A stretch of 55,938 bases of DNA from Armatimonadota bacterium (GTDB taxonomy: Bacteria > Armatimonadota > Chthonomonadetes > Chthonomonadales > CAJBBX01), in the NCBI GenBank assembly GCA_026392115.1, contig JAPLCQ010000088.1, positions 1-55,938 on the forward strand, in the 5' to 3' direction. The notes beneath the pieces are model-generated. The model was not told the origin of the DNA and made no database searches. It saw only the letters and a list, made by a program, of their open reading frames with translations. The translations under genes and the position numbers were made by a program. Below are positions 5,630-39,058 of the stretch, piece after piece. Each line of letters opens with the position of its first letter. The stretch's first letter is position 1.

Positions 5630-8581
5630 TCACGCGACGCCGGACGCCTGCGCCGCCAGCTCCAGCGCCTCCTCGCTCGTCATGCCGCGGCCGCGGCACG
5701 CTGCGAGCTCATAGGCTTCGGGGTCGAGGTCGGCTTGCAGCTTGGCCGCCAGCGCAGCCGGCCCCTGCATTTCCACCGCCGACCGGGGCAAGAGATACGG
5801 CCCCTCGCGCAGCTTGGCGGCGTGGCACAGGAGGGCGGCCGCGGACTCGGTCTCGCCGTCGTCGTCGGCGACCTGGGCCATGGCCTCCAGGCACGAGGCG
5901 TACACGATCGTATGGCCCCCGGCGCGCACGAGGCCCAGCATGGCCAGGGCGCGCCGGCGCGCCTCGTCGGGCAGGCCGCCGTCCCTGGCGATGGCGCCCA
6001 GCGCCCAAAGGCAGCGCGCCTCGCGGTAGGTGTCGCTCAGGTCGCGGCAGTAGGTCAGGCTCTCTTCGAGCTTGGCGCGCGCCCCTTCCAGATCGCCGGA
6101 CCGCCAACAGAGCAGCCCCAGGTCGTGCAGGAGATGCGCCATATACCTCTTGTTGCCCAGCCGCCGGGCGATGTCCAACGCCCGGCGCTGTGCCTCGGCG
6201 GCCTCGGCGGGCCGGCCCTCCTCCTCGGCGCCGAGGGCCAACCCAAGCAGCGCGGCAAGGGCGACCTCGTCGGCGCCGCTGGCGCGCGCTGCCGCCAGAG
6301 CCTCCTCGAAGGTGAGGCGAGCGGCGTGATGGTCGCCCTGGTGGTGATGGATGACGCCCAGCGAGCTCAGCGCCTGCAACTCCCCCTGTCCGTCGCCCAG
6401 TTCGCGGTAGATGGCAAGGCTCTCGCGGCCGCACGCCGCGGCGTCGGGCTGCCCGCGGTCGGTGCCCAGGTTGAGGCCGAGCCCCTGGAGGGCGGCGGCG
6501 TAGGCGGCGGTCCGGCTGCCTGCGCCTGCGAGCCGGGCGGCGGTGAGCCACTTGCGGGCCTCCTCGCGGCGCCCCACGCTGCCCCAGTAGGGCCAAAGGC
6601 CGGCGGCGAGCCGCACGCCGGATGCCGTGTCCTCGGCGGATCGCCCGGGTTCGAGAAGGCACCACTGGAGCGCGGCGGCGCAGTTAGCCAGGTCGGGCTC
6701 CAGCGCGGTGGGCCAGCCCTCCACCGTGTCTGCCGAGGCCTGCACCACCACCCGCTCCGCCATCTCAGCGAACCAGAGGGCGTGGCGGCCGCGTAGCCCG
6801 TCGGCCGCCTCCGGCTCAAGGAGACTGGCGGCGTGGGTCCGCAGAGTCTCCAGCATACCGAAGCGCATGCGGCCGCGAGTTTCGACCGAGGTGATGAGCG
6901 AGTGGTTGTGCAGCGCCCGCAGGGCGTGTGGCGAGGCGCCGCAGACGCCCGCCGCCGCCTCGGCGCGCCAGCCGCCCCTGAAGACGGAGAGCTCCGCGAA
7001 GAGCCGCCGCTCATCTTCATCCAGCAGGCGCAGGCTCCAGTCCGTGGCAGACTGGAGCGAGGCCACCCGCGCGGGCGCAGCCGCGGAAGGATCGGCCAGG
7101 AGGGCCGGCAGACTCTCCACGCGAGCGAGAATCTCTTCGGGGGTGTAGACGCCCGACCAGCCGGCGACGATCTCGATGGCCAGCGGCAGGCCGTCCAGCC
7201 GGGCGCACAGGTCGGCCACGGCCCGCGCGTTCCGGTCGGTCACCTCGAAGTCCGGGCGGTGGGCCTGGATGCGGTCGGCGAGCATCTGGACGCCGGCGAA
7301 CCGCACCGCCTGCTCGGCGACCGCAGCACCCGCGGGGCTCTCCAGCGGCGCGACCCGCAGCACCCGCTCGCCTGCGAGGCCGACAGGCCGGCGCGAGGTG
7401 GCCAGCACGGTCAGACCCCTACAGGAGGGCAGCAGGCGCGCCAGCATCCGGGCGGCGTCGTCCGCCACATGCTCCAGGTTGTCCAGCACCAGCAGGCAGC
7501 CCGCGCCGTCGGAGCAACCCTTGCTGAGCGCGACCGATAGGCCGGCGACGGAGCCGGCGGGAAGGCCAAGGGTGCGCCCCACCGCCGAGGCCACTCCTCC
7601 GGGGCCGGGCAGGTCGGCCAGCGGCACGAAGCGGACGGCGCCTTCGTAGGCGGCGCCCAAACGGGTTACTGCCTCGATGGCGAGGCGGGTCTTGCCGGAG
7701 CCGCCCGGCCCCGTGAGCGTGAGTAGGCGGACGCGCTCCTCACCGGGCGCCAGCAGCGCCGCGATCCGGCCCAGCTCGGCCGACCTGCCGAAGAAGCGGC
7801 CCATGGGCGCGGGCACGGGACCATCCAGTGGCGGGCGTCGGCGCGTCGGTGCGTCGGCGGCTTCGATGGCCTCATCGGGCGGCTCGGAGCCCATCTCCTC
7901 GCGCCAGAGCTTTGCCATGGCCGCCAGGCGCCGGCGGGCGGCCGCGTGGTCGCCGCGCCGCGCCGCGCACCGTATGACCGTGATGTGGGCGGTCTGGTTC
8001 AGCGGGTCGATGGCGATGGCCCGAGCGGCATGCTCGCCGGCGGCGGCATAGTCGCGGGTAGCTTCGGCGGCCACGGCCAGGTTGCGCAGCGCCTCGATCA
8101 CCCGCTCGCGCAGGCGCCGGCGCTCAACGGCGAACCAGTCGCCGTCCAGGTCGGGCAGCAGTTCGCCGGTATAGAGGGCCGCCGCGCGGGCCAGCGCATG
8201 GACCGCCGCTTCGCCCTCCAGGCCGGCGGCGGCGTCCATGGCGGCGTCGAACTGCGCTACGTCGGTGATGACGGCGGTGGGGTTCAGGCCGACGTGGTCG
8301 CGGCCGGTCTTGAGTACGCTGCCCGGCGCGATACCTGCCGGTTCAAGGATTCTCCGAAGGCGCAGCAGCACCTGACGCAGGTGCGTCCGGCCCTCGTCAC
8401 GATCCAGGTCGGGGTAGAGCAGGTCGGCGAGCTCTTCGCGGGAGATGCGTGGTCGGTCGGGGTAGGCCAGGCGCGCCACGAGGCCGGCCGTGCGGCGAGT
8501 AGGGTGGACGACCGCGCCGCCATCCCATGGATGGAGGGCGAGCCCCCCCAAGAGCTGAACTCTCCAAACGCCCTGTGCCAC
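5630..8581 (-). CDS. BTAD/SARP-type transcriptional regulator with NTPase and TPR domains
   Basis: This 983-residue protein has the AfsR-like layout. Residues about 1-100 form an OmpR-type winged helix (LLGGLALHPWDGG, RTHLRQVLLRLRRIL); about 105-250 is the BTAD helical domain. The NTPase follows, with Walker A GPGGSGKTRLA and Walker B LLVLDNLEHV, and the C-terminal third consists of TPR-like repeats. The start is GTG at 8581, preceded by GGGAGTGG. It diverges from the SBBP gene at 8831 across 249 bp, so it is a plausible local regulator of that gene. Such proteins usually couple nucleotide-dependent self-assembly to activation; the signal here is unknown. Confidence 0.88.
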   Translation of the reverse strand: MAQGVWRVQLLGGLALHPWDGGAVVHPTRRTAGLVARLAYPDRPRISREELADLLYPDLDRDEGRTHLRQVLLRLRRILEPAGIAPGSVLKTGRDHVGLNPTAVITDVAQFDAAMDAAAGLEGEAAVHALARAAALYTGELLPDLDGDWFAVERRRLRERVIEALRNLAVAAEATRDYAAAGEHAARAIAIDPLNQTAHITVIRCAARRGDHAAARRRLAAMAKLWREEMGSEPPDEAIEAADAPTRRRPPLDGPVPAPMGRFFGRSAELGRIAALLAPGEERVRLLTLTGPGGSGKTRLAIEAVTRLGAAYEGAVRFVPLADLPGPGGVASAVGRTLGLPAGSVAGLSVALSKGCSDGAGCLLVLDNLEHVADDAARMLARLLPSCRGLTVLATSRRPVGLAGERVLRVAPLESPAGAAVAEQAVRFAGVQMLADRIQAHRPDFEVTDRNARAVADLCARLDGLPLAIEIVAGWSGVYTPEEILARVESLPALLADPSAAAPARVASLQSATDWSLRLLDEDERRLFAELSVFRGGWRAEAAAGVCGASPHALRALHNHSLITSVETRGRMRFGMLETLRTHAASLLEPEAADGLRGRHALWFAEMAERVVVQASADTVEGWPTALEPDLANCAAALQWCLLEPGRSAEDTASGVRLAAGLWPYWGSVGRREEARKWLTAARLAGAGSRTAAYAAALQGLGLNLGTDRGQPDAAACGRESLAIYRELGDGQGELQALSSLGVIHHHQGDHHAARLTFEEALAAARASGADEVALAALLGLALGAEEEGRPAEAAEAQRRALDIARRLGNKRYMAHLLHDLGLLCWRSGDLEGARAKLEESLTYCRDLSDTYREARCLWALGAIARDGGLPDEARRRALAMLGLVRAGGHTIVYASCLEAMAQVADDDGETESAAALLCHAAKLREGPYLLPRSAVEMQGPAALAAKLQADLDPEAYELAACRGRGMTSEEALELAAQASGVA

Positions 8582-8725
8582 GAAACCACTCCCGACGCAT
8601 GGCCCAAGCGCCCTTCAGCGGAATCGATATTGGTGGCGCGCGCCTCTAGGATAGCATCTGCCGGGCGGCGATTTTCCAAGATTGAGGCCCGCCGGTGGCC
8701 CGATGACGCGATTCGGGCCGGATTC

Positions 8726-8736
8726 GTAACGGTTAC
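8726..8736. promoter_or_regulatory. short palindrome in divergent promoter region
   Basis: GTAAC-G-GTTAC is a 5-1-5 inverted repeat, followed by a partial direct repeat (ACGGT). It lies between the divergently oriented BTAD regulator and SBBP protein 1, about 95 bp before the SBBP start. Position suggests an operator, but no binding data exist and short palindromes also occur by chance. Confidence 0.3.
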
Positions 8737-8830
8737 ACAACGGTGCGTCCGTACACTGGCGCATGTCGGAGGGGTATCCGTCAAGGAGCCATGGCCCTCC
8801 GCCAATACCATAGAGAGGACCCAAGCACAC

Positions 8831-11758
8831 ATGTACGGTCTCTGCGTGATGGCCGGGTTGCTTGCCACGGCCGGGGCGCCTGTGGCGGCCAAGCCTCGGC
8901 TCGTCCTGCCCAACTCGCCGATCACCTTTGAGCGGAACACCGGCCACTGGCCCAAGGACGTCCGGTTCGTGGCCCGCACCGGCCGCGGCATGCTTTTCAT
9001 TACCCGCCGGGAGGCCGTGGTCTCGATCCGCAAGGGGGATCGGACCTCGACGCTCCGGCTGAAGCTGCAGGGCTCCGACCCCGCCGCCGTCGCCTCGGGG
9101 CTTGAGAAGCGGCCCGGCATCGTCAACTACTTCATCGGCAAGGACCCGAAGCAGTGGCGGACGAATGTCCCCACCTACTCGCGCGTGAAGCTGGCCGGGG
9201 TCTATCCCGGCGTGGACCTGGTCTACTACGGCGCGGGACAGGGCCGCGAGCTGGAGTATGACTTCGTGGTGAAGCCCGGCGCCGACCCCTCGAAGATCCG
9301 CATGTCGGTCTCCGGCGCCAGGTCGCTGCGGGGCGTCGGGGGCCAGGTGGTCGCCTCCACCGAGTGCGGCGACGTCGTTCTGAATCGTCCCTACGCCTAC
9401 CAGACCGTCGGCGGCATCCGCAGGCAGGTCGCCTGCTCCTTCGAGCTGGAGCGCGATACCGTCGCCTTCCGGGTGGCCCGCTACGACGCCTCGCGGCCGT
9501 TGGTGGTGGACCCCACGCTGAGCTACTGCACCTACCTGGGCGGGGCCGGCGACGAGGGGTTCCACGCCATCGCGGTCGACGGCGCCGGCGCAGCCTACGT
9601 AGTGGGTGATGTCACAACGGGCGGCTTCCCGGTCACCCCGGGAGCCTATAGCACCACGCTTGCCAGCGTTCGCGACTGCGTGGTGGCGAAGCTGGCGGCT
9701 GACGGCAAGAGCCTCGTCTACGCCACCTACCTCGGCGGCGATAAGAACGACGCCGCTTACGCTGTCGCCGTCGATGCAACCGGGGCGGCGATCGTGGGAG
9801 GCGAGACCCTGTCGGGCACCTTCCCGACCACCCCCGGCGTCCTCGGCTCGGCCCTCGGCGGCGGCACCGACGCCTTCGTGGTCCGCATCAGCCCGGCGGG
9901 CAACGCCCTGCAGATGGCGACTTATCTCGGCGGCGCGGCCTATGACAACCTGAGGGGCATCGCCCTCGGCAGCGGCGGCGCCGTCTATGCCACGGGCCAG
10001 ACCAACTCGGCCGCGTTCCCGACCACGCAGGGAGCCTACAGCAGGGCCCTGGCCGGCGACCGCGATGCGTACGTCGTCAAGCTGACCGCCGACGGCAGCG
10101 CCCTGGTCTACGGCACGCTGTTCGGCGGAACCTACCGGGACACCGGCAACGCCATCGCGGTCTCCAGCGCCGGCGTCGCCTACATCGCCGGCGGCACCGA
10201 GTCCAATAACCTGCCGGCCGCCGGCTTCTTCCAGCCGGCCTATGGAGGCGGCGACCGCGACACGTTCGTCATGGCGCTCTCAGCCGACGGGAGCTCCCTG
10301 CTCTACGCCACGTACTTCGGAGGGACCGCCCTGGAGTCGGCCGAGGGCATCACGGTGGACGGCTCGGGTTGCGCAACCGTGATCGGCACGTCGGAGGGCT
10401 CCATGCCCCTGCCGCCCGGCGGCTACCAGGCGGTCCGCGGCGGCAACTACGACACCTTCCTGGCGCGGTTCGCCGCCGACGGCAAGAGCGTCCTGGCCGG
10501 CACTTACCTCGGGGGGACCAGCTCCGAAGGGTATGCGACATTCGCCACAGACGCGACGGGCGATATCTGCGTCTTCGGGTACACCAACTCCGACAACTTC
10601 CCCGTGACGCCCGACGCGTTGCAGTCCACGCGCGGCTCCGGTCAGGCCTACTACGTGGCCAAGCTCAACTCGGCCATGACGAGCCTGATCTACGGCACCT
10701 TCCTGGGCGGCTCGATCTACGACGAGAGCTCGGCATGCGCCGCGGCGGGCGGCGCGCTCTACTTTGTGGGCGGCACACTGGGCGGCATCGCGGCCACGGC
10801 CGGGGCCTACCAGACCAGCCCCGGCGGCAGCTTTGACGGCCTGGTGGCCAAGCTCGCCTTCGTCCAGCCGTTGAGCCTCGCCGTCGCCGACGTCACGGCA
10901 ACCGCCGGCTCGCGCACCACGCTCGCCGCCACGTTGACCTCGGGTGGATCGCCGGTATCGGCGCGACGGCTCCAGTTCCGCATAGACGGCGGTGCATGGA
11001 CCAACTCCGAGACCCTCACCAGCGCCGCCGGCCGAGCCACCCTCACCCTCACCGCACCGGCGGCCGGCCCGCACACGATCGACTGCCGGGCCCTCGACGC
11101 ATCGGCGGCCGTCGAGGCCGCCGGCTCCGGCTCCCTCACCGCCACGGCGCTCATCGGCACCGCCACGAACGCCTGCGACCGAACCTCCGGCCCCGGCGAC
11201 GTCGTGAACCTGCCGGCGTACCTGGTCCTGCCCTCCGCGACCTCCACCGGTACGGGCGTCGCCGGGAAGCCGATTGAGTTCCAGTTCAACGGCGGCTCCT
11301 GGACCGCGGCATCGGCCCTGACCGACGCCACCGGCAAGGCCGCCCTCGCCGTCACCGCTCCCGCCGCGGTCGGCGACTACACCATCAACGCGCGCTTCCT
11401 GGGCGACGCCACCCACGCCGCCTCCAGCGGCACGGCCAAACTCACCGTGGCCGCCAAGCGGAACGCCTACGTTTACACCGCCAACCGATCCGGCAAGGCG
11501 GGCTCGGCGGGCACGCTGATCTCCTTCTTCTACTGGTACCAGAAGAACGGAACCCTGACCCCGGTCAGCGGGAAGTCCCTCCGGTTCCAGTGCGCCGGCG
11601 TGAGCCTGGACAGCACGGTCACCACCGACGCCTCCGGCAAGGCCACGGTTACGGTCACCCCGGCCTCCGCCGGCTCGTTCCCGTTCACCGTGGACTTCAC
11701 GGCGGACGCCGACTACAACGCGGCCGGCGGCGCAGGCACGCTGACCGTGGCGCCGTAG
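8831..11758 (+). CDS. secreted SBBP seven-bladed beta-propeller protein 1 with Ig-like C-terminus
   Basis: The 975-residue protein opens with a signal peptide (MYGLCVMAGLLATAGAPVAA). Residues about 30-230 form the domain that typically precedes SBBP repeats (FERNTGHWPKDVRF ... RPLVVDPTLSY). Seven SBBP repeats follow, each with a [YA]-x-T-[YFL]-[LF]-GG strand, a DGxGxAYV stretch and FPTTPGAY-like turns, consistent with one seven-bladed propeller. About 300 C-terminal residues form three Ig-like modules (LQFRIDGGAW, IEFQFNGGSW, LRFQCAGVSL). It is a close paralogue of the protein at 17564, but its promoter differs. The role is probably extracellular or surface binding; no enzymatic motif is seen. 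Confidence 0.9.
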   Translation: MYGLCVMAGLLATAGAPVAAKPRLVLPNSPITFERNTGHWPKDVRFVARTGRGMLFITRREAVVSIRKGDRTSTLRLKLQGSDPAAVASGLEKRPGIVNYFIGKDPKQWRTNVPTYSRVKLAGVYPGVDLVYYGAGQGRELEYDFVVKPGADPSKIRMSVSGARSLRGVGGQVVASTECGDVVLNRPYAYQTVGGIRRQVACSFELERDTVAFRVARYDASRPLVVDPTLSYCTYLGGAGDEGFHAIAVDGAGAAYVVGDVTTGGFPVTPGAYSTTLASVRDCVVAKLAADGKSLVYATYLGGDKNDAAYAVAVDATGAAIVGGETLSGTFPTTPGVLGSALGGGTDAFVVRISPAGNALQMATYLGGAAYDNLRGIALGSGGAVYATGQTNSAAFPTTQGAYSRALAGDRDAYVVKLTADGSALVYGTLFGGTYRDTGNAIAVSSAGVAYIAGGTESNNLPAAGFFQPAYGGGDRDTFVMALSADGSSLLYATYFGGTALESAEGITVDGSGCATVIGTSEGSMPLPPGGYQAVRGGNYDTFLARFAADGKSVLAGTYLGGTSSEGYATFATDATGDICVFGYTNSDNFPVTPDALQSTRGSGQAYYVAKLNSAMTSLIYGTFLGGSIYDESSACAAAGGALYFVGGTLGGIAATAGAYQTSPGGSFDGLVAKLAFVQPLSLAVADVTATAGSRTTLAATLTSGGSPVSARRLQFRIDGGAWTNSETLTSAAGRATLTLTAPAAGPHTIDCRALDASAAVEAAGSGSLTATALIGTATNACDRTSGPGDVVNLPAYLVLPSATSTGTGVAGKPIEFQFNGGSWTAASALTDATGKAALAVTAPAAVGDYTINARFLGDATHAASSGTAKLTVAAKRNAYVYTANRSGKAGSAGTLISFFYWYQKNGTLTPVSGKSLRFQCAGVSLDSTVTTDASGKATVTVTPASAGSFPFTVDFTADADYNAAGGAGTLTVAP

Positions 11759-11827: not shown

Positions 11828-12868
11828 CTAGAAGAAGCGCTTGACCAGGCCGAGGATGCCCTGCTTCCACGGGACGCGGTGGCTCACGCCGCTCTTGTTC
11901 TCGAACTCCGCCTTGTGGGCGATGTACCACTCGTAGTTGCGGATCAGCGCGGCCTGGTTGGAGTGCTTCGGCTGCCAGCCCAGCACGCGCTGAGCCTTCT
12001 CGATGGAGACGAACGAGTCCTTGGCCGCCGTCTCATAGACCCACTTGTAGAGCGGCGAGAGGTGCAGCGCCTCCAGCAGGCGCAGCGTGGCGATGACCGG
12101 CCCGGCCGGCGTCCCCTTGATCTTCTTGCCGAAGCCCGCCTTGTCCAGCACCGCCTGGTAGTCCTCCTTCATCGTGGCGAACTCGGCCGCGCCGATGTTG
12201 AAGGTGTCGTTCACAGTCTCGGCGGGCAGCGTCAGGCAGAGCCAGATCGCCTGGCACAGGTCCTCCACGTCGAGCAGTTGGTACCGGTTCGCGCCGGAGC
12301 CGATCACCGGGAAGCCGTGGCCGCTCTGCGCCCAGTCGTAGAAGAGCGCGAAGACGCCCAGCCGCTCCGGCCCCACAAAGGACTTGGGGCGGACGACGGG
12401 CACGCAGAGGCCCTTCTCGCGCATCTTGACGCACTCGCCCTCGGCCTCAACCTTGGCGATGCCGTAGGGGCCCACGCCCACCATCTGGTCATCCTCCACC
12501 AGCGGATGGTGGTCCGGGATGCCGTAGACGGCGGTGGAGGAGATCATCACCACCCGCGGGATGCCCAGTTCGTGGGCGATCTCCAGCACGTTGCGGGTCC
12601 CCACCACGTCGGTGGTGTGGATGTCGTCCGGCGGGTAGAGCGGCAGCGCGGCGGCGGTATGCACCACCAGGCCGCAGCCCCGCATGGCCTGCTTCAGGGC
12701 GCGCCGGTCGCGGATATCGCCCTTCACCTCGGTCACGCGGCCCCGCTCGGGGTAGTCGAACGGCGCCAGGTCGTAGCTGACGACGCCGCACACCTCGGCC
12801 AGCAGCCGCCGAACCAGGTTGATGCCAAGAAAACCGGCCCCGCCGGTGACGAAGACGTTGGAAGCCAT
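11828..12868 (-). CDS. NAD-dependent epimerase/dehydratase (extended SDR)
   Basis: The 346-residue protein begins with the Rossmann motif FVTGGAGFLGINLV and contains the extended-SDR active-site segments ISSTAVYG and GPYGIAKVEAE (Tyr-x3-Lys). The acidic residue after the second strand (YDLAPFDYP) favours NAD. It resembles nucleotide-sugar 4-epimerases and related dehydratases; substrate cannot be fixed. The start at 12868 has a GGGAGGGATC ribosome site. The ORF extends further upstream only into repeat DNA. It stands alone, convergent with SBBP protein 1 and next to a repeat array. Confidence 0.87.
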   Translation of the reverse strand: MASNVFVTGGAGFLGINLVRRLLAEVCGVVSYDLAPFDYPERGRVTEVKGDIRDRRALKQAMRGCGLVVHTAAALPLYPPDDIHTTDVVGTRNVLEIAHELGIPRVVMISSTAVYGIPDHHPLVEDDQMVGVGPYGIAKVEAEGECVKMREKGLCVPVVRPKSFVGPERLGVFALFYDWAQSGHGFPVIGSGANRYQLLDVEDLCQAIWLCLTLPAETVNDTFNIGAAEFATMKEDYQAVLDKAGFGKKIKGTPAGPVIATLRLLEALHLSPLYKWVYETAAKDSFVSIEKAQRVLGWQPKHSNQAALIRNYEWYIAHKAEFENKSGVSHRVPWKQGILGLVKRFF

Positions 12869-12935
12869 GCGCGATCCCTCCCTGCGATGCCCGATGATAG
12901 CACACGGGCGGAGGGGCGGGGGCGGGGGAGGCACC

Positions 12936-13793
12936 GGCGACTGAAGTCGCTGCAACGAACGGCGGGAAGTCGCCCTTCGGCGACTTGGGCGGGTGCGGCC
13001 GCCGTCCCTACGGGCAATCTGGGGGCTCACTGACGCCACTGATGGTGGCCCTCCGACGCCGTCCAGTCGCCGAAGGGCGACTTGCCGACTTTCGTTGCGG
13101 CGGTTTCAACCGCCCGCACCCCGTCAAGCCACGTTGCCGATGGAATCGGGGTCCTTCACTTCGTTCAGGACGACCGGCAAGGGCGGCGGAGTCCGGCGAC
13201 TGAAGTCGCTGCAACGAACGGCGGGAAGTCGCCCTTCGGCGACTTGGGCGTGTGCGACCGCCGAGCCTACGGGCGCTCTGGGGGCTCACTGACGCCACTG
13301 ATGGTGGCTCGCCACCGCCGTCCAGTCGCCGAAGGGCGACTTCCCGTCGTTCGTTGCCGCGGTTTCAACCGCCCGCACCCCGAGCACGCCACGTTGCCGA
13401 TGGAATCGGGGTCCTTCACTTCGTTCAGGACGACCGGCAAGGGCGCCGGGGGTGCCGGCCTGCCGGGGGCGCCGGCGACTGAAGTCGCTGCAACGAACGG
13501 CGGAAAGTCGCCCTTCGGCGACTTGGGCGGGTGCGGCCGCCGTCCCTACTGGCGCTCTGGGGGCTCACTGACGCTACAGGTGGTGGCCCTCCGACGCCGG
13601 CCAGTCGCCGAAGGGCGACTTCCCAACTTTCGTGGCGGCGGTTTCAACCGCCCGGACCCCGTCAAGCCACGTTGCCGATGGAATCGGGGTCCTTCACTTC
13701 GTTCAGGACGACCGGCAAGGGCGCCGGGGGTGCCGTCCAGTCGCCGAAGGGCGACTTCCCGCCTTTCGTTGCGGCGGTTTCAACCGCCCGCAC
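12936..13793. repeat. array of three 260-280 bp palindromic interspersed repeats
   Basis: Units begin near 12936, 13195 and 13474. Each has a left arm (GGCGACTGAAGTCGCTGCAA, then AAGTCGCC-CTTC-GGCGACTT), a centre with GGGGGCTCACTGACGC, and a right arm that is nearly the reverse complement of the left arm, ending GCGGTTTCAACCGC. Arms are about 50 bp and contain two small nested hairpins each. A shared linker (CACGTTGCCGATGGAATCGG, then a GGTCCT/AGGAC inverted repeat) joins the units. The third unit carries an extra right arm (13736-13790). ORFs crossing this area are repeat-derived. No transposase is encoded nearby, so the elements are probably non-autonomous or structural. Confidence 0.9.
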
Positions 13794-13798
13794 GGAGG

Positions 13799-14056
13799 CT
13801 ACGCGAGGGCCTCGCTGCAGACGATGCGCGCCGCTTCGTCGGCGTCGACGGCGCGCCGCTGCGCCGAGGCGGCCATCTCGGCCATGCCGTGCTCGTGATA
13901 GATGTCGGTCAGGGCCCCGCACCGGCGGAGCCTCGTGATGAGGTCGAGCAGCAGGCTGCAAACGGAAAAGCCACCCGGCGCAATGCCGCGGTGGCTCTGG
14001 AGACGAATACACACAAAACGTGTGGGACTATAGTTCGGAAGATCGCTCTTCCGCAC
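13799..14056 (-). CDS. possible small protein or gene remnant (85 codons, GTG start)
   Basis: The frame reads to a stop next to the repeat array. The last 50 codons (LLLDLITRLRRCGALTD ... ARIVCSEALA) use almost only G or C in third positions and look coding. The first 35 codons do not, and they overlap the hairpins and terminator of the candidate ncRNA. I see no good ribosome site. It may be the 3' end of a decayed gene behind a surviving leader, or a small protein with a start I cannot place. No family is recognised. Confidence 0.3.
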   Translation of the reverse strand: MRKSDLPNYSPTRFVCIRLQSHRGIAPGGFSVCSLLLDLITRLRRCGALTDIYHEHGMAEMAASAQRRAVDADEAARIVCSEALA

Positions 14057-14141
14057 ATCGAGGGTCTCCCCTCAAGGCACCGTCGCCGTCTCCAGGCCGG
14101 TTGCCAGGCGCAGCGCGAACGCTGCTCCATTCCTGATGCTG
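13965..14141 (-). ncRNA. candidate structured leader RNA / riboswitch / sRNA
   Basis: The minus-strand transcript expected from the promoter at 14147-14175 folds by eye into defined helices. P1 is GCAUC/GAUGU, enclosing three hairpins: P2 GCAGCG-UUCG-CGCUGC; P3 with GGCA-ACCG paired to CGGU-GCC around a GCC/GGC tip; P4 GAGGG-GAGA-CCCUC. A separate hairpin CGGAAGA-GCGA-UCUUCCG follows, then CACAC-GUUUU-GUGUG, then a terminator. UUCG and GNRA-type loops are typical of real structured RNAs. The three-hairpin junction and the GCAACC/GGUGC pair recall SAM-I riboswitches, but the P2 pseudoknot loop and J3/4 are missing, so I do not call that class. Confidence 0.55.
13966..13995 (-). terminator. intrinsic terminator of the candidate ncRNA
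   Basis: On the minus strand GCCACC and GGTGGC pair, continued inward by CGGC/GCCG with one bulged base and a 5-nt loop, and the stem is followed directly by TTTT. It lies about 150 nt downstream of the predicted transcription start. Confidence 0.6.
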
Positions 14142-14146
14142 GTAGT

Positions 14147-14175
14147 ATTGTACAGCAACGCGGCCCATCTGTCAA
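14147..14175 (-). promoter_or_regulatory. consensus sigma-70 promoter reading leftward
   Basis: On the minus strand TTGACA (complement of 14170-14175) is separated by exactly 17 bp from TACAAT (complement of 14147-14152). This is the strongest -35/-10 pair seen in the window. It points away from the metallophosphoesterase gene and into the structured region at 13965-14141. Confidence 0.7.
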
Positions 14176-14214
14176 GCCCGTTTTAGGCGCCGGACCGCGG
14201 CCCAGGAGGTCCCC

Positions 14215-15048
14215 ATGGAGTGGCTGGCTCTCACCGCCGCGCTGGCGGTCTGCGCGCTCTCGACGGTCGTGGCCGAGGCCGCGCCGCAGCGCACGGTGCG
14301 CATCGCGCTGCTCAGCGACACGCATGTCCGAACCAACCCCACGGGCGACCACGCGGCCTACCGCGACCGCCTGCTGCAGGCCGTCGCCCAGGTGCGCGAG
14401 ATGAAGCCCGACGTCACGCTCTTCGCCGGCGACCTGACCGAGAACGGCTCGCCGGAGGACTTCCTCACCTTCAAGGCGCTGGCCGCCGGGCTGCGGAAGC
14501 CGGTGCTGTGGGTGGCGGGCAACCACGACGTGGGCGGCAAGCGGCTGCCGGGCAAGGCCGAGGGCGTCACCGAGGAGAGCATGGCCGCGTTCGAGGCGGC
14601 GCTTGGCCCCGGCTTCGGCGCCCGCACGGCCGGCGGGGCGCGGATCATCACCCTCAACGCCTCGCTGCTGGGCAGCGGCCTCCCCTCCGAGGCGCGGCAG
14701 TGGGCCCTGCTGGAGCGGGAGACCGCACGCAAGGGCGCCACGCCGAAGGTGATCCTCCTCCACAACCCCCTCTTCGTCAAGGAGCCCGGCGAGAAGGGCG
14801 GCGACTACTGGTGCGTGGAGCCGGAGCCCCGCAAGCGCCTGCTGGACCTGGCCCGGCGCGGCGGCGTGCGGGCCATCTTGTCGGGGCATATCCACCGTCC
14901 GCTGGAGGCCGAGGCCGAGGGCATCGCCTGCATCACCACGCCGCCCGTCTCCTTCGGCCTGCCGCCCGGCGCGCAGCCGGAGGGGTGGACCTGGATAGAG
15001 ATCGACCCGGCAGGGGCCGTCACCGCACGGGTGGTGGAGATTCGGTAG
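14215..15048 (+). CDS. calcineurin-like metallophosphoesterase, exported
   Basis: The 277-residue protein carries a signal peptide (ALTAALAVCALSTVVAEA) and the ordered metallophosphoesterase motifs: LLSDTHV (DxH), LFAGDL (GD), WVAGNHDVGG (GNHD), LLHNPL and LSGHIHRP (GHxH). These residues bind the dinuclear metal centre. A CCAGGAGGT ribosome site precedes the ATG. The substrate (phosphodiester, nucleotide or phospholipid) is not evident. Repeat arrays lie on both sides, so it is probably expressed alone. Confidence 0.88.
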   Translation: MEWLALTAALAVCALSTVVAEAAPQRTVRIALLSDTHVRTNPTGDHAAYRDRLLQAVAQVREMKPDVTLFAGDLTENGSPEDFLTFKALAAGLRKPVLWVAGNHDVGGKRLPGKAEGVTEESMAAFEAALGPGFGARTAGGARIITLNASLLGSGLPSEARQWALLERETARKGATPKVILLHNPLFVKEPGEKGGDYWCVEPEPRKRLLDLARRGGVRAILSGHIHRPLEAEAEGIACITTPPVSFGLPPGAQPEGWTWIEIDPAGAVTARVVEIR

Positions 15049-15072
15049 GCCCGGAGGGCGTCGGAGGGCGCC

Positions 15073-15514
15073 GGCGACTGAAGTCGCTGCAACGAACGGC
15101 GGGAAGTCGCCCTTCGGCGACTTGGGCGGGTGCGGCCGCCGGGCCTACGGGCACTCTGGGGGCTCACTGACGCCACAGGCGGTGACCCTTCGCCGCCGTC
15201 CAGTCGCCGAAGGGCGACTTCCCGCCTTTTGTTGCCGCGGTTTCAACCGCACGTACCCCGAGCAAGCCACGTTGCCGCCGGAGTCGGGGTCCTTCACTTC
15301 GTTCAGGCCGACGGCACGGGCGCGGAGTCCGGCGACTGAAGTCGCTGCAACGAACGGCGGGAAGTCGCCCTTCGGCGACTCGGGCGGGTGCGGCCGCCGA
15401 GCCTACGGGCGCTCTGGGGGCTCACTGACGCCACAGGCGGTGACCCGCCACCGCCGTCCATTCGCCGAAGGGCGACTTCCCGCCTTTTGTTGCCGCGGTT
15501 TCAACCGCCCGCAC
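15073..15514. repeat. second array of the palindromic interspersed repeat (two units)
   Basis: Units start near 15073 and 15331 and have the same arms and centre as the array at 12936-13793, with small differences such as CTTTTGTTGCCGCGG in the right arm. The second unit ends after the right arm at about 15514. The remaining bases to 15643 hold a short spacer and the presumed promoter region of the histidine kinase; TATGATAGGAT near 15595 is a possible -10. Confidence 0.9.
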
Positions 15515-17413: not shown

Positions 17414-17608
17414 CTCACGCCCTCCACCGCCGCGTAGAACTACGCGAAAATCGAGTAGAAACCGGAGCGCTCGCGCGTACCTTTCCGCTTCCCTTGTCGT
17501 GCGCAGCCGGGCTACGATGGGTCGTGGCGCGTGGAGCGCCATACTTCACTCCTGGAGAGGCACATGCTCAGTCGTACCAAACGCACGCCGCGACTGGCCC
17601 TGGCGGCG
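17414..17608 (+). repeat. duplicated promoter/RBS/signal-peptide cassette, copy A
   Basis: About 195 bp here match 21407-21601 with roughly ten base differences. The cassette covers the upstream region, the palindrome, CGGGCTACGATGGGTCGTGG, the GGAGAGG ribosome site, the ATG and the first 15 codons (MLSRTKRTPRLALAA). The ATG is at offset 150 in both copies. The downstream proteins are unrelated. Confidence 0.92.
17431..17446. promoter_or_regulatory. 7-2-7 palindrome, candidate operator (copy A)
   Basis: CGCGTAG-AA-CTACGCG is a perfect inverted repeat 118 bp before the SBBP protein 2 start. Further TAGAA half-sites follow (GAGTAGAAACC). It is invariant in the second cassette. A dimeric NarL-type regulator is encoded next door and could bind it; this is inference. 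The palindrome could alternatively form a short hairpin. Confidence 0.45.
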
Positions 17609-20542
17609 GCCTTGGCCGCTGTTTCGGCCGCCGCAGCGGCGGCTCCGCCGGCGAAGATGGCGCGCCTGTCGGGGCTCAACCTGCCGTTGTCCTTTGAGAA
17701 GAACACCGGGCACTGGCCCAAGGGCGTGGAGTTCGTCGCCCGCGGCGGCGGCGGGACGCTCTTCCTGACCAGGCGCGAGGCCGTCCTCTCGCTCCGCAAG
17801 GGCGACAAGGCCGCGGCGCTCCGCCTGAAGCTGCAGGGCTCCAACGGCGCCGCCGTGGCGTCCGGGCTGGAGAAGCAGCCCGGCATCGTCAACTACTTCA
17901 TCGGGAACGACCCCGCGCAGTGGCGCACGAAGGTCCCGACCTACTCCCGGGTGAAGCTGGCGGGCGTCTACCGCGGGATCGACCTGGTCTATTACGGCGC
18001 GGGCAAGTCCCGCACGCTGGAGTACGACTTCGTAGTCAAGCCCGGAGCGGACGCGAAGCAGATCCGCATGGCCGTCTCCGGCGCGAAGTCGCTCCGCACG
18101 GCCGGCGGCAGGCTCATCGCCTCCACGGCTTGCGGCGACGTGACGCTCAACCGGCCCTACGCCTACCAGACCATCGACGGCGTCCGCAAGCAGGTGGCAT
18201 GCGCATTCACCCTCGAGCGCAACACCGTGGCCTTCCAGGTCGCGCGGTACGACGCGAGCCGCCCGCTGATCGTGGACCCGACGCTGGAGTACAGCACGCT
18301 CATCGGCGGCGCCGCGAACGACGACGGAGGCTACGACATCGCCGTAGACGGGACCGTGGCGGCCTATGTTGCCGGCAGCACCTTCAGCGCCGACTTCCCG
18401 ACTACCTCCGGTGCGTACAGCGTGTCGCACCAGGGCGCGACAGATGCGTTCGTCGCCAAGCTCAACGCGACGGGTACGGGATTGATCTACAGCACCTTCA
18501 TCGGTGGCGAGGTGTGGGATGACGGCCGGAGCGTCGCCGTTGATAGCGCTGGGTGCGCCTATGTCATGGGCAGTACGAACTCGAGTGCATTTCCAACTAC
18601 AACTGGCGCATATCAAACAGCATTATCAGGTGCTTACGATGTATTTGTTGCAAAGCTGAATGCCGCAGGAACGGCGCTGACCTACAGCACCTTGTTGGGC
18701 AGCGGCAATGCCGACAACGGCTGCGGCATGGCCGTCGATGCCGCAGGCGCCGCCTACATCACGGGCACCACCGACAGCCCGGGCTTCCCTACCACTCCCG
18801 GCGCGTTTGACTCGTCGCTCACGGTCGCGAATGATGCCTTCGTCACCAAACTGAATGCCTCCGGCACAGGGCTGGTCTACAGCACCTTCCTCGGCGGTGG
18901 CGACGATGACCAGGGCCTCGGTATTGCAACGGATGACACCGGAAACGCATATATAACGGGATACACCTGCAGCGCCGACTTCCCGACCACATCGGGCGCC
19001 TACGACACGACGTACAACGGTATGAAGGATGCCTTCGCCGTCAAGCTCAACCCGACCGGCACGAACCTGATCTACGCCACCTATGTCGGCGGCAGCAGCG
19101 ACGACGAGCAGGGTCAGTGCGTTGCCGTCGACAGCGCCGGAGCCGCCTACATAGCCGGCTACACCTGGAGCGCCGACTATCCGACCACGTCGGGCGCCTA
19201 CGACACGTCGCACAACGGCAATGTCGACGTCTTCGTCACCAAGATCAGCTCTGACGGCAAGGCGCTCACGTACAGCACCCTCCTGGGCGGCAACGACTGG
19301 GACGAAGCAACGCGCATCGTGGTGGACGGCGACGGGTGCGCCTCTGTCGCGGGCACCACGCTCTCGGTAGGCTTTCCGACGACGGCGGACGCCCTCGCCA
19401 CATCGTTCGGCGGTGTCGCCGATGCGTTCGTCGCCCAGATGAACGCGACCGGGACAGGGCTGAAGTACAGCACTTTTCTGGGCGGCACGGGTAACGACAA
19501 CGGCAGGAGCGTCGCCCTTGGGCCGGGACAATCGATGTTCGTTACGGGTTACACGAGATCGGCCGCCTTCCCAACCACCGCCGGCGCCTACCAGACATCG
19601 CGGCGAGGCAGTAATGACGCCTTTGTCCTGAAGATGCTCCTGTCCTCCACGAAGCTCACCGTCGACAGCCTCGCCGGCGGCGCCGGCGCTCGCGTCACGC
19701 TGCGGGCCCGGCTAACGGATGCGGGCGAAGCCGGGATCGCCGGGCAGCGGCTGCAGTTCCGGATCGACTCCGGCGCATGGGTCAACTCGGAAATCCTCAC
19801 GACGCCCGTGGGCTATGCCGTGCTCACCATCACGGCTCCGGCAGCGGGCGCCCATACGCTCGACGCGCGCTTTGAGGCCTCGGGCGCCTACGGCGCCGCC
19901 ACGGCGAGCGGCACGCTGACCACCACGGCGCTGCCGGCAACCAGCCTGGAGGTGACCTCGATCACCGCCGGGCCCGGCGACGCCTTCACGATGGTCGCCT
20001 ACCTGCGCGGTCAGGGCACCGGCACCTCGCCCGGTCCCGGCCTCCTGAACAAGCCCGTCGGCCTGCGGATGAACGGCGGGGCCTGGCTGGGCGCGTATGA
20101 CCCGACGGACGCCAATGGGAGGGCATACCTCAAGATGACGGCGCCGTCGACGCCGGGCACCTACAGCCTCGAGGCCATGTTCATCGGCGACGCCGGCTAC
20201 GCCGCCTGCGCGGGTTCGGGCACGCTGACGGTGGCCGCCAAGCGTAGCTGCTACGTCTACACCATCAACCGAACCGGCAAGGTTGGCACAGCCGGTTCGC
20301 TTGTCGCCTACTTCTACTGGTACAAGAAGGACGGCACGATGACGCCGGTCAGCGGCAAGTCGCTCCGCTTCCAGTGCGCCGGAGCGGGCCTGGACAGCTC
20401 GGCCACCACCGACGCCTCGGGCAAGGCGACCGTCTTGGTCACCCCGGCCACGGCCGGCTCGCACCCGTTCACCGTGACCTTCACGGCGGATACCGACTAC
20501 AATGCCGGCAGCGGCGGCGGCACGCTGACCGTAGCGCCCTGA
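17564..20542 (+). CDS. secreted SBBP seven-bladed beta-propeller protein 2 with Ig-like C-terminus
   Basis: The 992-residue protein starts with a signal peptide (MLSRTKRTPRLALAAALAAV). It then repeats the layout of the protein at 8831: pre-propeller domain (FEKNTGHWPKGVEF ... RPLIVDPTLEY), seven SBBP repeats (YSTLIGG, YSTFIGG, YSTLLGS, YSTFLGG, YATYVGG, YSTLLGG, YSTFLGG) and three Ig-like modules ending GTLTVAP. The ATG at 17564 has GGAGAGG 4 bp upstream; a longer GTG-started frame is less likely. Blades 2-3 contain an AT-richer stretch (about 18577-18662) unlike the rest. The gene sits between a histidine kinase and its probable regulator, suggesting two-component control. Confidence 0.9.
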   Translation: MLSRTKRTPRLALAAALAAVSAAAAAAPPAKMARLSGLNLPLSFEKNTGHWPKGVEFVARGGGGTLFLTRREAVLSLRKGDKAAALRLKLQGSNGAAVASGLEKQPGIVNYFIGNDPAQWRTKVPTYSRVKLAGVYRGIDLVYYGAGKSRTLEYDFVVKPGADAKQIRMAVSGAKSLRTAGGRLIASTACGDVTLNRPYAYQTIDGVRKQVACAFTLERNTVAFQVARYDASRPLIVDPTLEYSTLIGGAANDDGGYDIAVDGTVAAYVAGSTFSADFPTTSGAYSVSHQGATDAFVAKLNATGTGLIYSTFIGGEVWDDGRSVAVDSAGCAYVMGSTNSSAFPTTTGAYQTALSGAYDVFVAKLNAAGTALTYSTLLGSGNADNGCGMAVDAAGAAYITGTTDSPGFPTTPGAFDSSLTVANDAFVTKLNASGTGLVYSTFLGGGDDDQGLGIATDDTGNAYITGYTCSADFPTTSGAYDTTYNGMKDAFAVKLNPTGTNLIYATYVGGSSDDEQGQCVAVDSAGAAYIAGYTWSADYPTTSGAYDTSHNGNVDVFVTKISSDGKALTYSTLLGGNDWDEATRIVVDGDGCASVAGTTLSVGFPTTADALATSFGGVADAFVAQMNATGTGLKYSTFLGGTGNDNGRSVALGPGQSMFVTGYTRSAAFPTTAGAYQTSRRGSNDAFVLKMLLSSTKLTVDSLAGGAGARVTLRARLTDAGEAGIAGQRLQFRIDSGAWVNSEILTTPVGYAVLTITAPAAGAHTLDARFEASGAYGAATASGTLTTTALPATSLEVTSITAGPGDAFTMVAYLRGQGTGTSPGPGLLNKPVGLRMNGGAWLGAYDPTDANGRAYLKMTAPSTPGTYSLEAMFIGDAGYAACAGSGTLTVAAKRSCYVYTINRTGKVGTAGSLVAYFYWYKKDGTMTPVSGKSLRFQCAGAGLDSSATTDASGKATVLVTPATAGSHPFTVTFTADTDYNAGSGGGTLTVAP

Positions 20543-38685: not shown

Positions 38686-38698
38686 GCCGGCCGGGGTG

Positions 38699-38755
38699 CG
38701 GGCGGTTTAAACCGCTGCAACGAACGGCGGGAGGTCGCCCTTCGGCGACTGGACG
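38699..38755. repeat. single arm of the palindromic interspersed repeat
   Basis: GGCGGTTTAAACCGCTGCAA then GGTCGCCCTTCGGCGACT is one arm of the element found at 12936 and 15073. The gap 38686-38981 otherwise holds a short coding-like stretch on the minus strand (about 38760-38900, reading RTYSNDGWALDATGPLY), perhaps a remnant, and the tRNA promoter. Confidence 0.8.
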
Positions 38756-38944
38756 GCGGCGGAGGGTTCTCGCTGGTCGCCCTGAACGATCAGGCGCCGA
38801 CACGCCGCGGGAGCGCAATAGAGCGGCCCGGTTGCGTCGAGCGCCCAGCCGTCGTTTGAGTAGGTCCGCGCCGCCGTTCGCTCGGACCGTATCGAGATCA
38901 CGGCGCAACAGTTTGGCGGGGAGTGGCGATCGACCCCATGCAGC

Positions 38945-38981: not shown

Positions 38982-39058
38982 CGGGGTGTGGCTCAGCTTG
39001 GTAGAGCGCGCGGTTCGGGACTGCGAGGTCGGAGGTTCAAATCCTCTCACCCCGACCA
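38982..39058 (+). tRNA. tRNA-Pro (anticodon CGG), CCA encoded
   Basis: A full cloverleaf can be drawn. Acceptor CGGGGTG/CACCCCG, D stem GCTC/GAGC, anticodon stem CGCGG/CTGCG with loop TTCGGGA (anticodon CGG, codon CCG), variable AGGTC, T stem GGAGG/CCTCT with loop TTCAAAT, discriminator A and encoded CCA. Total 77 nt. The CGG anticodon fits the high-GC codon use of the neighbours. Confidence 0.95.

Follow-up and report, generated by a model that had tools for sequence, protein, structure and literature searches.

The window, that is, the whole 55,938-nt stretch of Armatimonadota DNA analyzed here, encodes on its minus strand a riboswitch RNA (14144-13966) that has a promoter of its own and ends in a terminator whose U-tract is short. 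We assign this element, with a probability of roughly 0.9, to the SAM-I/IV riboswitches (Rfam RF01725), on a transcription-terminator platform that ancestrally controlled a MoxR-type AAA+/VWA operon and was orphaned by the loss of that operon. The riboswitch class itself is already known, and the window RNA is a fresh member of it. Its class, structure and pocket identities, as well as the absence of the operon, were established computationally. Most likely, the element switches transcription OFF in response to SAM and was orphaned through gene loss.

A preliminary description, made from the letters alone, had placed here a structured RNA of ~175 nt behind the promoter TTGACA-17-TACAAT, and both proved real at the correct coordinates. 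The sigma-70 type promoter (14175-14147, minus strand) matched the consensus at 11 of 12 positions in the promoter scan, with none expected in shuffles, and was aligned and conserved in two congeners (G001 and G002). Transcription by RNA polymerase would start near 14140. The RNA folded at -88.6 kcal/mol compared with -67.2 ± 4.0 for shuffled sequences (z -5.3), none of 200 being equally stable. The terminator had been called perfect; folding and sequence confirmed its stem (13995-13970, GCCACC..GGUGGC) and the U4 tract (feature 13966-13995, minus strand), but the hairpin, at about -20 kcal/mol when folded alone, was absent from the list of a consensus terminator scan with strict criteria and is weak by those criteria. 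The locus is bordered by a divergent metallophosphoesterase gene (14215-15048, plus strand), whose synteny is kept in both congeners. Farther out, two large, similar secreted-type repeat proteins (7946-11758 and 17531-20542), paralogues by eye, flank the locus.

The Rfam search proposed in the preliminary description identified SAM-I-IV (RF01725) as the one significant family in the stretch, matched over all 99 model positions at 37.0 bits (E 2.8e-4), slightly below the curated cut-off of 41.1 bits, which is an operational threshold. SAM-I-IV was retained as the best match within its clan. Furthermore, an independent model (R2) built from 17 sequences outside the genus, several of which themselves exceed 41.1 bits, recovered the element as its sole match in 56 kb, at 80.1 bits (E 2e-18). 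The aptamer thus matched by both models occupies 14144-14020 on the minus strand, the full model length. On these two matches a new riboswitch class, one of the readings offered earlier, was rejected.

Homologues were collected across the phylum Armatimonadota by DNA similarity and covariance search, including both congeners' copies. The covarying relatives that the preliminary description had called for were indeed found: among 42 matches (38 distinct sequences; some of the weakest matches belong to SAM-I and not to SAM-I/IV), 25 of 33 pairs showed compensatory changes on both sides. In the alignment 88% of cells pair, a figure biased toward the structure because the alignment was fitted to the covariance model; structures slid by 1-3 columns drop to about 40%. 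This control and the count of compensated pairs are more reliable than that percentage. Covariation gave strong support to P1, P2, P3 and P4, while P5 is length-variable and the model columns represent it less well. On the minus strand, P1 (14139-14135 with 14059-14055) closes the junction in the Rfam alignment and contains the pocket residues A6, U7, C8 and A87 (SAM-I numbering). P2 (14130-14106) is a hairpin capped by a UUCG loop and lacks both an internal loop and PK-1, as seen in both the Rfam and the congener alignments; in the window it has one A.G mismatch, absent in the congeners. P3 (14105-14076) shows the pairing GGCAACC/GGUGCC that had been described, holds the SAM-binding internal loop GCAACC/GGUGC and carries loop L3 (GGAGAC, 14093-14088). 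Inside the junction, P4 (14073-14060, GAGA loop) has 5 covarying pairs and also aligns in the congeners, and P5 (14053-14036, GCGA loop) lies 3' of P1, with a compensatory change in G001. The three loops of P2, P4 and P5 are all as first reported. According to PMC6890682, the SAM-I residues within 5 Å of SAM are 6-8, 11-12, 44-47, 57-59 and 87. The corresponding positions in the window are all of the SAM type (AUC, GA, CAAC, UGC and A, respectively), and promoter, pocket and P3 are identical to both congeners in the alignment. The window RNA is predicted to bind SAM.

The earlier interpretation was right in its likeness to SAM-I, with the core shared and the pocket nucleotides intact, and in noticing that the P2 pseudoknot is missing; it erred in offering a new class or a degenerate S-box. 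The parts it called missing are absent class-wide, because SAM-I/IV riboswitches are described as having an undivided P2, no PK-1 and, unlike SAM-IV, a P4 (PMC6890682), and as lacking the P2 internal loop (PMC2864571). The intact pocket, and the fact that the class as a whole lacks the same parts, led us to reject a degenerate S-box. It is the absence of the P2 pseudoknot that distinguishes SAM-I/IV from SAM-I, and PK-2 is found instead. SAM-I (S-box, RF00162) shares the ligand-binding core and terminator logic, but the window RNA has P5 and PK-2 and lacks PK-1 and the kink-turn internal loop of P2, which is a continuous UUCG hairpin. SAM-IV shares the core, P5 and PK-2, yet it has a P2 split into P2a/P2b, a PK-1 and no P4, and was ruled out by the presence of P4 and the absence of PK-1 in the window. 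With RF01725, on the other hand, the element has in common P1, P2 without an internal loop, P3, the junction P4, P5 outside P1, PK-2 (L3 with the 3' side) and all SAM-contacting nucleotides. It departs from that family in PK-2, where a small hairpin displaces the 3' strand and the proximal copy of this strand is degenerate, and in that no target gene remains in the genome, the copies of its relatives serving MoxR/VWA operons.

PK-2 had been overlooked in the preliminary description. L3 (as GGAGACG) pairs with CGUCUCC directly before the terminator; 13 of 1000 shuffles reached a helix of that strength. The majority of homologues pair L3 GGAGAC with GUCUCC in a single register after P5, and compensatory forms occur, such as GAAGAAC/GUUCUUC in G041. 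Across the window genus, homologue comparison showed the proximal strand to be degenerate (GUCCC, 14028-14024, minus strand; GUCUC in relatives). The perfect partner of L3 in the window is the distal strand, beyond the small hairpin CACAC-GUUUU-GUGUG (14024-14010, minus strand; congener alignment and folding) and adjoining the terminator. This distal strand, UCGUCUCCAG (14006-13997, minus strand), can form 10 bp with L3 and the 5' side of P3 according to pairing and the folds of cut transcripts, and it is the PK-2 partner and/or the start of an antiterminator. Both strands, with the hairpin between them in the window, are also present in G035 and in the second copy of G001.

Minimum-energy folds were used to examine the switching mechanism. 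When transcripts were cut before the 3' arm of the terminator, its 5' arm paired with the P3 5' strand in 8 of 8 homologues (this genus and G035), suggesting that L3 and the P3 5' strand act as the antiterminator. Pairing of the terminator 5' arm with the P3 3' strand as a simple antiterminator was, by eye, inconsistent across homologues, and the cut-transcript folds favored the P3 5' strand. Full-length folds retained the terminator with or without pairing between L3 and the distal strand. At high SAM levels the P1-P4 aptamer, P5 and PK-2 (L3 with CGUCUCC) would form, the terminator 13995-13970 would fold and transcription would halt after about 175 nt. At low SAM levels, L3 and the P3 5' strand would extend their pairing into the 5' arm of the terminator, allowing read-through. 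The direction of the switch is accordingly predicted to be OFF.

That no metabolic gene follows, as had been remarked, holds for the window, and its relatives point to loss of the downstream operon as the cause. In G001 the order is divergent metallophosphoesterase, riboswitch, MoxR AAA+ gene, a 193-aa gene, VWA gene and epimerase, and G002 shows the first part of this order up to its contig end. The window flanks align to both congeners at 87-97% identity, up to 12930 on one side and 13906-13940 on the other, and the gap between (12930-13906) does not align. In the place of the operon lies about 1 kb of DNA, mostly repeats. No MoxR gene was found elsewhere in the window's genome, the best other match having 32% identity, and 13799-13906 held no convincing similarity to the lost operon beyond a 45-nt flank shared with G002. 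Given that the switch was left behind, we infer that the operon was lost here and not gained in the two congeners; the repeats make misassembly at this place a possibility. Two clusters (12925-13793, in the place of the lost operon, and 15055-15514) hold dispersed repeat units that measure about 260-280 bp and are 85-95% alike, and a partial unit lies at 38692-38789. The only RNA family above its cut-off in the window is a tRNA gene at 38982-39055.

Ancestrally, the switch would have controlled the MoxR-type AAA+/VWA operon, and at present it would at most stand ahead of an NAD-dependent epimerase gene (12868-11828, minus strand), now the nearest gene behind it, about 1.1 kb downstream. That the riboswitch has come to regulate this gene is possible, though rather unlikely. 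The epimerase gene comes next on the riboswitch's strand, in G001 about 90 nt separate it from the preceding VWA gene, and the promoter scan found no sigma-70-like promoter in 12800-14300 besides the riboswitch's own; against this, the intervening 1.1 kb is mostly repeats, promoters of other types are invisible to such a scan, and no metabolic connection between the epimerase and SAM is known. A still less probable reading is a stand-alone SAM-responsive small RNA, in which the promoter and core were kept despite the absence of the operon because the 175-nt terminated product acts in trans. The unchanged promoter, pocket and P3 relative to both congeners and the lack of any gene resembling a target downstream would fit it, but the element is an ordinary operon leader in the congeners, and the operon loss may simply be recent.

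We then asked which genes the SAM-I/IV riboswitches precede in relatives of the orphaned element. A protein search of 291 phylum genomes found this MoxR family in 7, and in all 7 the gene lies directly behind a SAM-I/IV riboswitch located within about 0.6 kb upstream. Five of the 7 have a divergent second SAM synthetase at the locus in addition to a canonical one in the genome. In two of these (G041 and G217) the operon consists of MoxR, a protein of ~130-160 aa, a metallopeptidase/VWA (DUF2201-like) protein and the divergent SAM synthetase, and in the other three (G252, G124 and G247) the same synthetase lies about 4 kb behind the riboswitch. G247 carries tandem SAM-I/IV riboswitches about 400 nt apart before its MoxR operon (L109 446-958). 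SAM synthetase-type genes also follow homologues in other families. Judged by eye from translations, a SAM synthetase gene follows the homologue in G066, and a gene of the cystathionine gamma-synthase type follows those in G117 and G092. Behind the homologues of G035 and G025 lies a second SAM synthetase-like gene whose neighbors are unrelated. Other SAM-I/IV-led operons, in G035 (L078 1025-4849), G201 (L112) and G025 (L070), encode proteins without a Pfam match; the second SAM synthetase of G035 and G025 is N-terminally cut in the called frame, and the unknown proteins of G035 and G201 are alike by eye. In the window's genome, the canonical metK has its own SAM-I leader. Three SAM-clan riboswitches also lie within 1.1 kb elsewhere in this genome (G000:C116:40032-41151; L063 1533-2651), namely a SAM-I/IV and a SAM-I in tandem before a YbjN-like gene and a SAM-I-like element (41.3 bits, below cut-off) before a SNF2-type helicase gene. 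The arrangement recurs in G001, where each of the three scores above cut-off. In an exact-pattern scan of the named genomes, many matches to the loose pattern other than the congeners look like chance.

Many homologues have non-standard downstream genes, as might be expected of a new ligand class on the SAM-clan scaffold, comparable to the spermidine variants of SAM-I with altered pocket positions in J1/2 and the P3 internal loop (PMC10853860). Those very positions are of the SAM type in the window, which rejects a spermidine variant, and SAM synthetase genes stand behind homologues, making a different ligand very improbable. A chance cluster of hairpins, or protein-coding sequence mistaken for RNA, is refuted by the covariation and the independent model match; the fold z of -5.3 also speaks against it. 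The region does contain several open frames, and the single minus-strand frame examined across it gave no Pfam match.

The accessory module of the relatives comprises a MoxR-type AAA+ ATPase, a small protein X, a metallopeptidase/VWA protein and a divergent second SAM synthetase. It resembles the vWA-MoxR ternary conflict systems (PMC7159879) in pairing a MoxR-like AAA+ with a VWA protein, and the AAA+ protein matched bpMoxR slightly below cut-off; as a difference from those systems, the scanned operon proteins showed no beta-propeller. The main text of PMC7159879 mentions neither riboswitch nor AdoMet nor DUF2201, and PADLOC returned only weak or generic helicase/HEAT matches. We found no report of a link between the riboswitch and the MoxR operon, nor a description of SAM-I/IV with the MoxR/VWA/second-MetK module, in the open-access literature searched. 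Tentatively, SAM-I/IV in Armatimonadota might control this module so that it is on at low SAM, as a depletion response possibly directed against SAM-consuming invaders, and the window would be a relic of one such locus; that the module answers SAM depletion is speculative.

The window RNA illustrates a riboswitch outliving its genes. The regulon of its relatives is the more useful part, given that every gene of this one MoxR AAA+ family found in the phylum sits behind a SAM-I/IV riboswitch. This constant position, usually near a divergent second SAM synthetase, links the AAA+/VWA module to the SAM level and offers a direct handle on the function of a poorly understood module.
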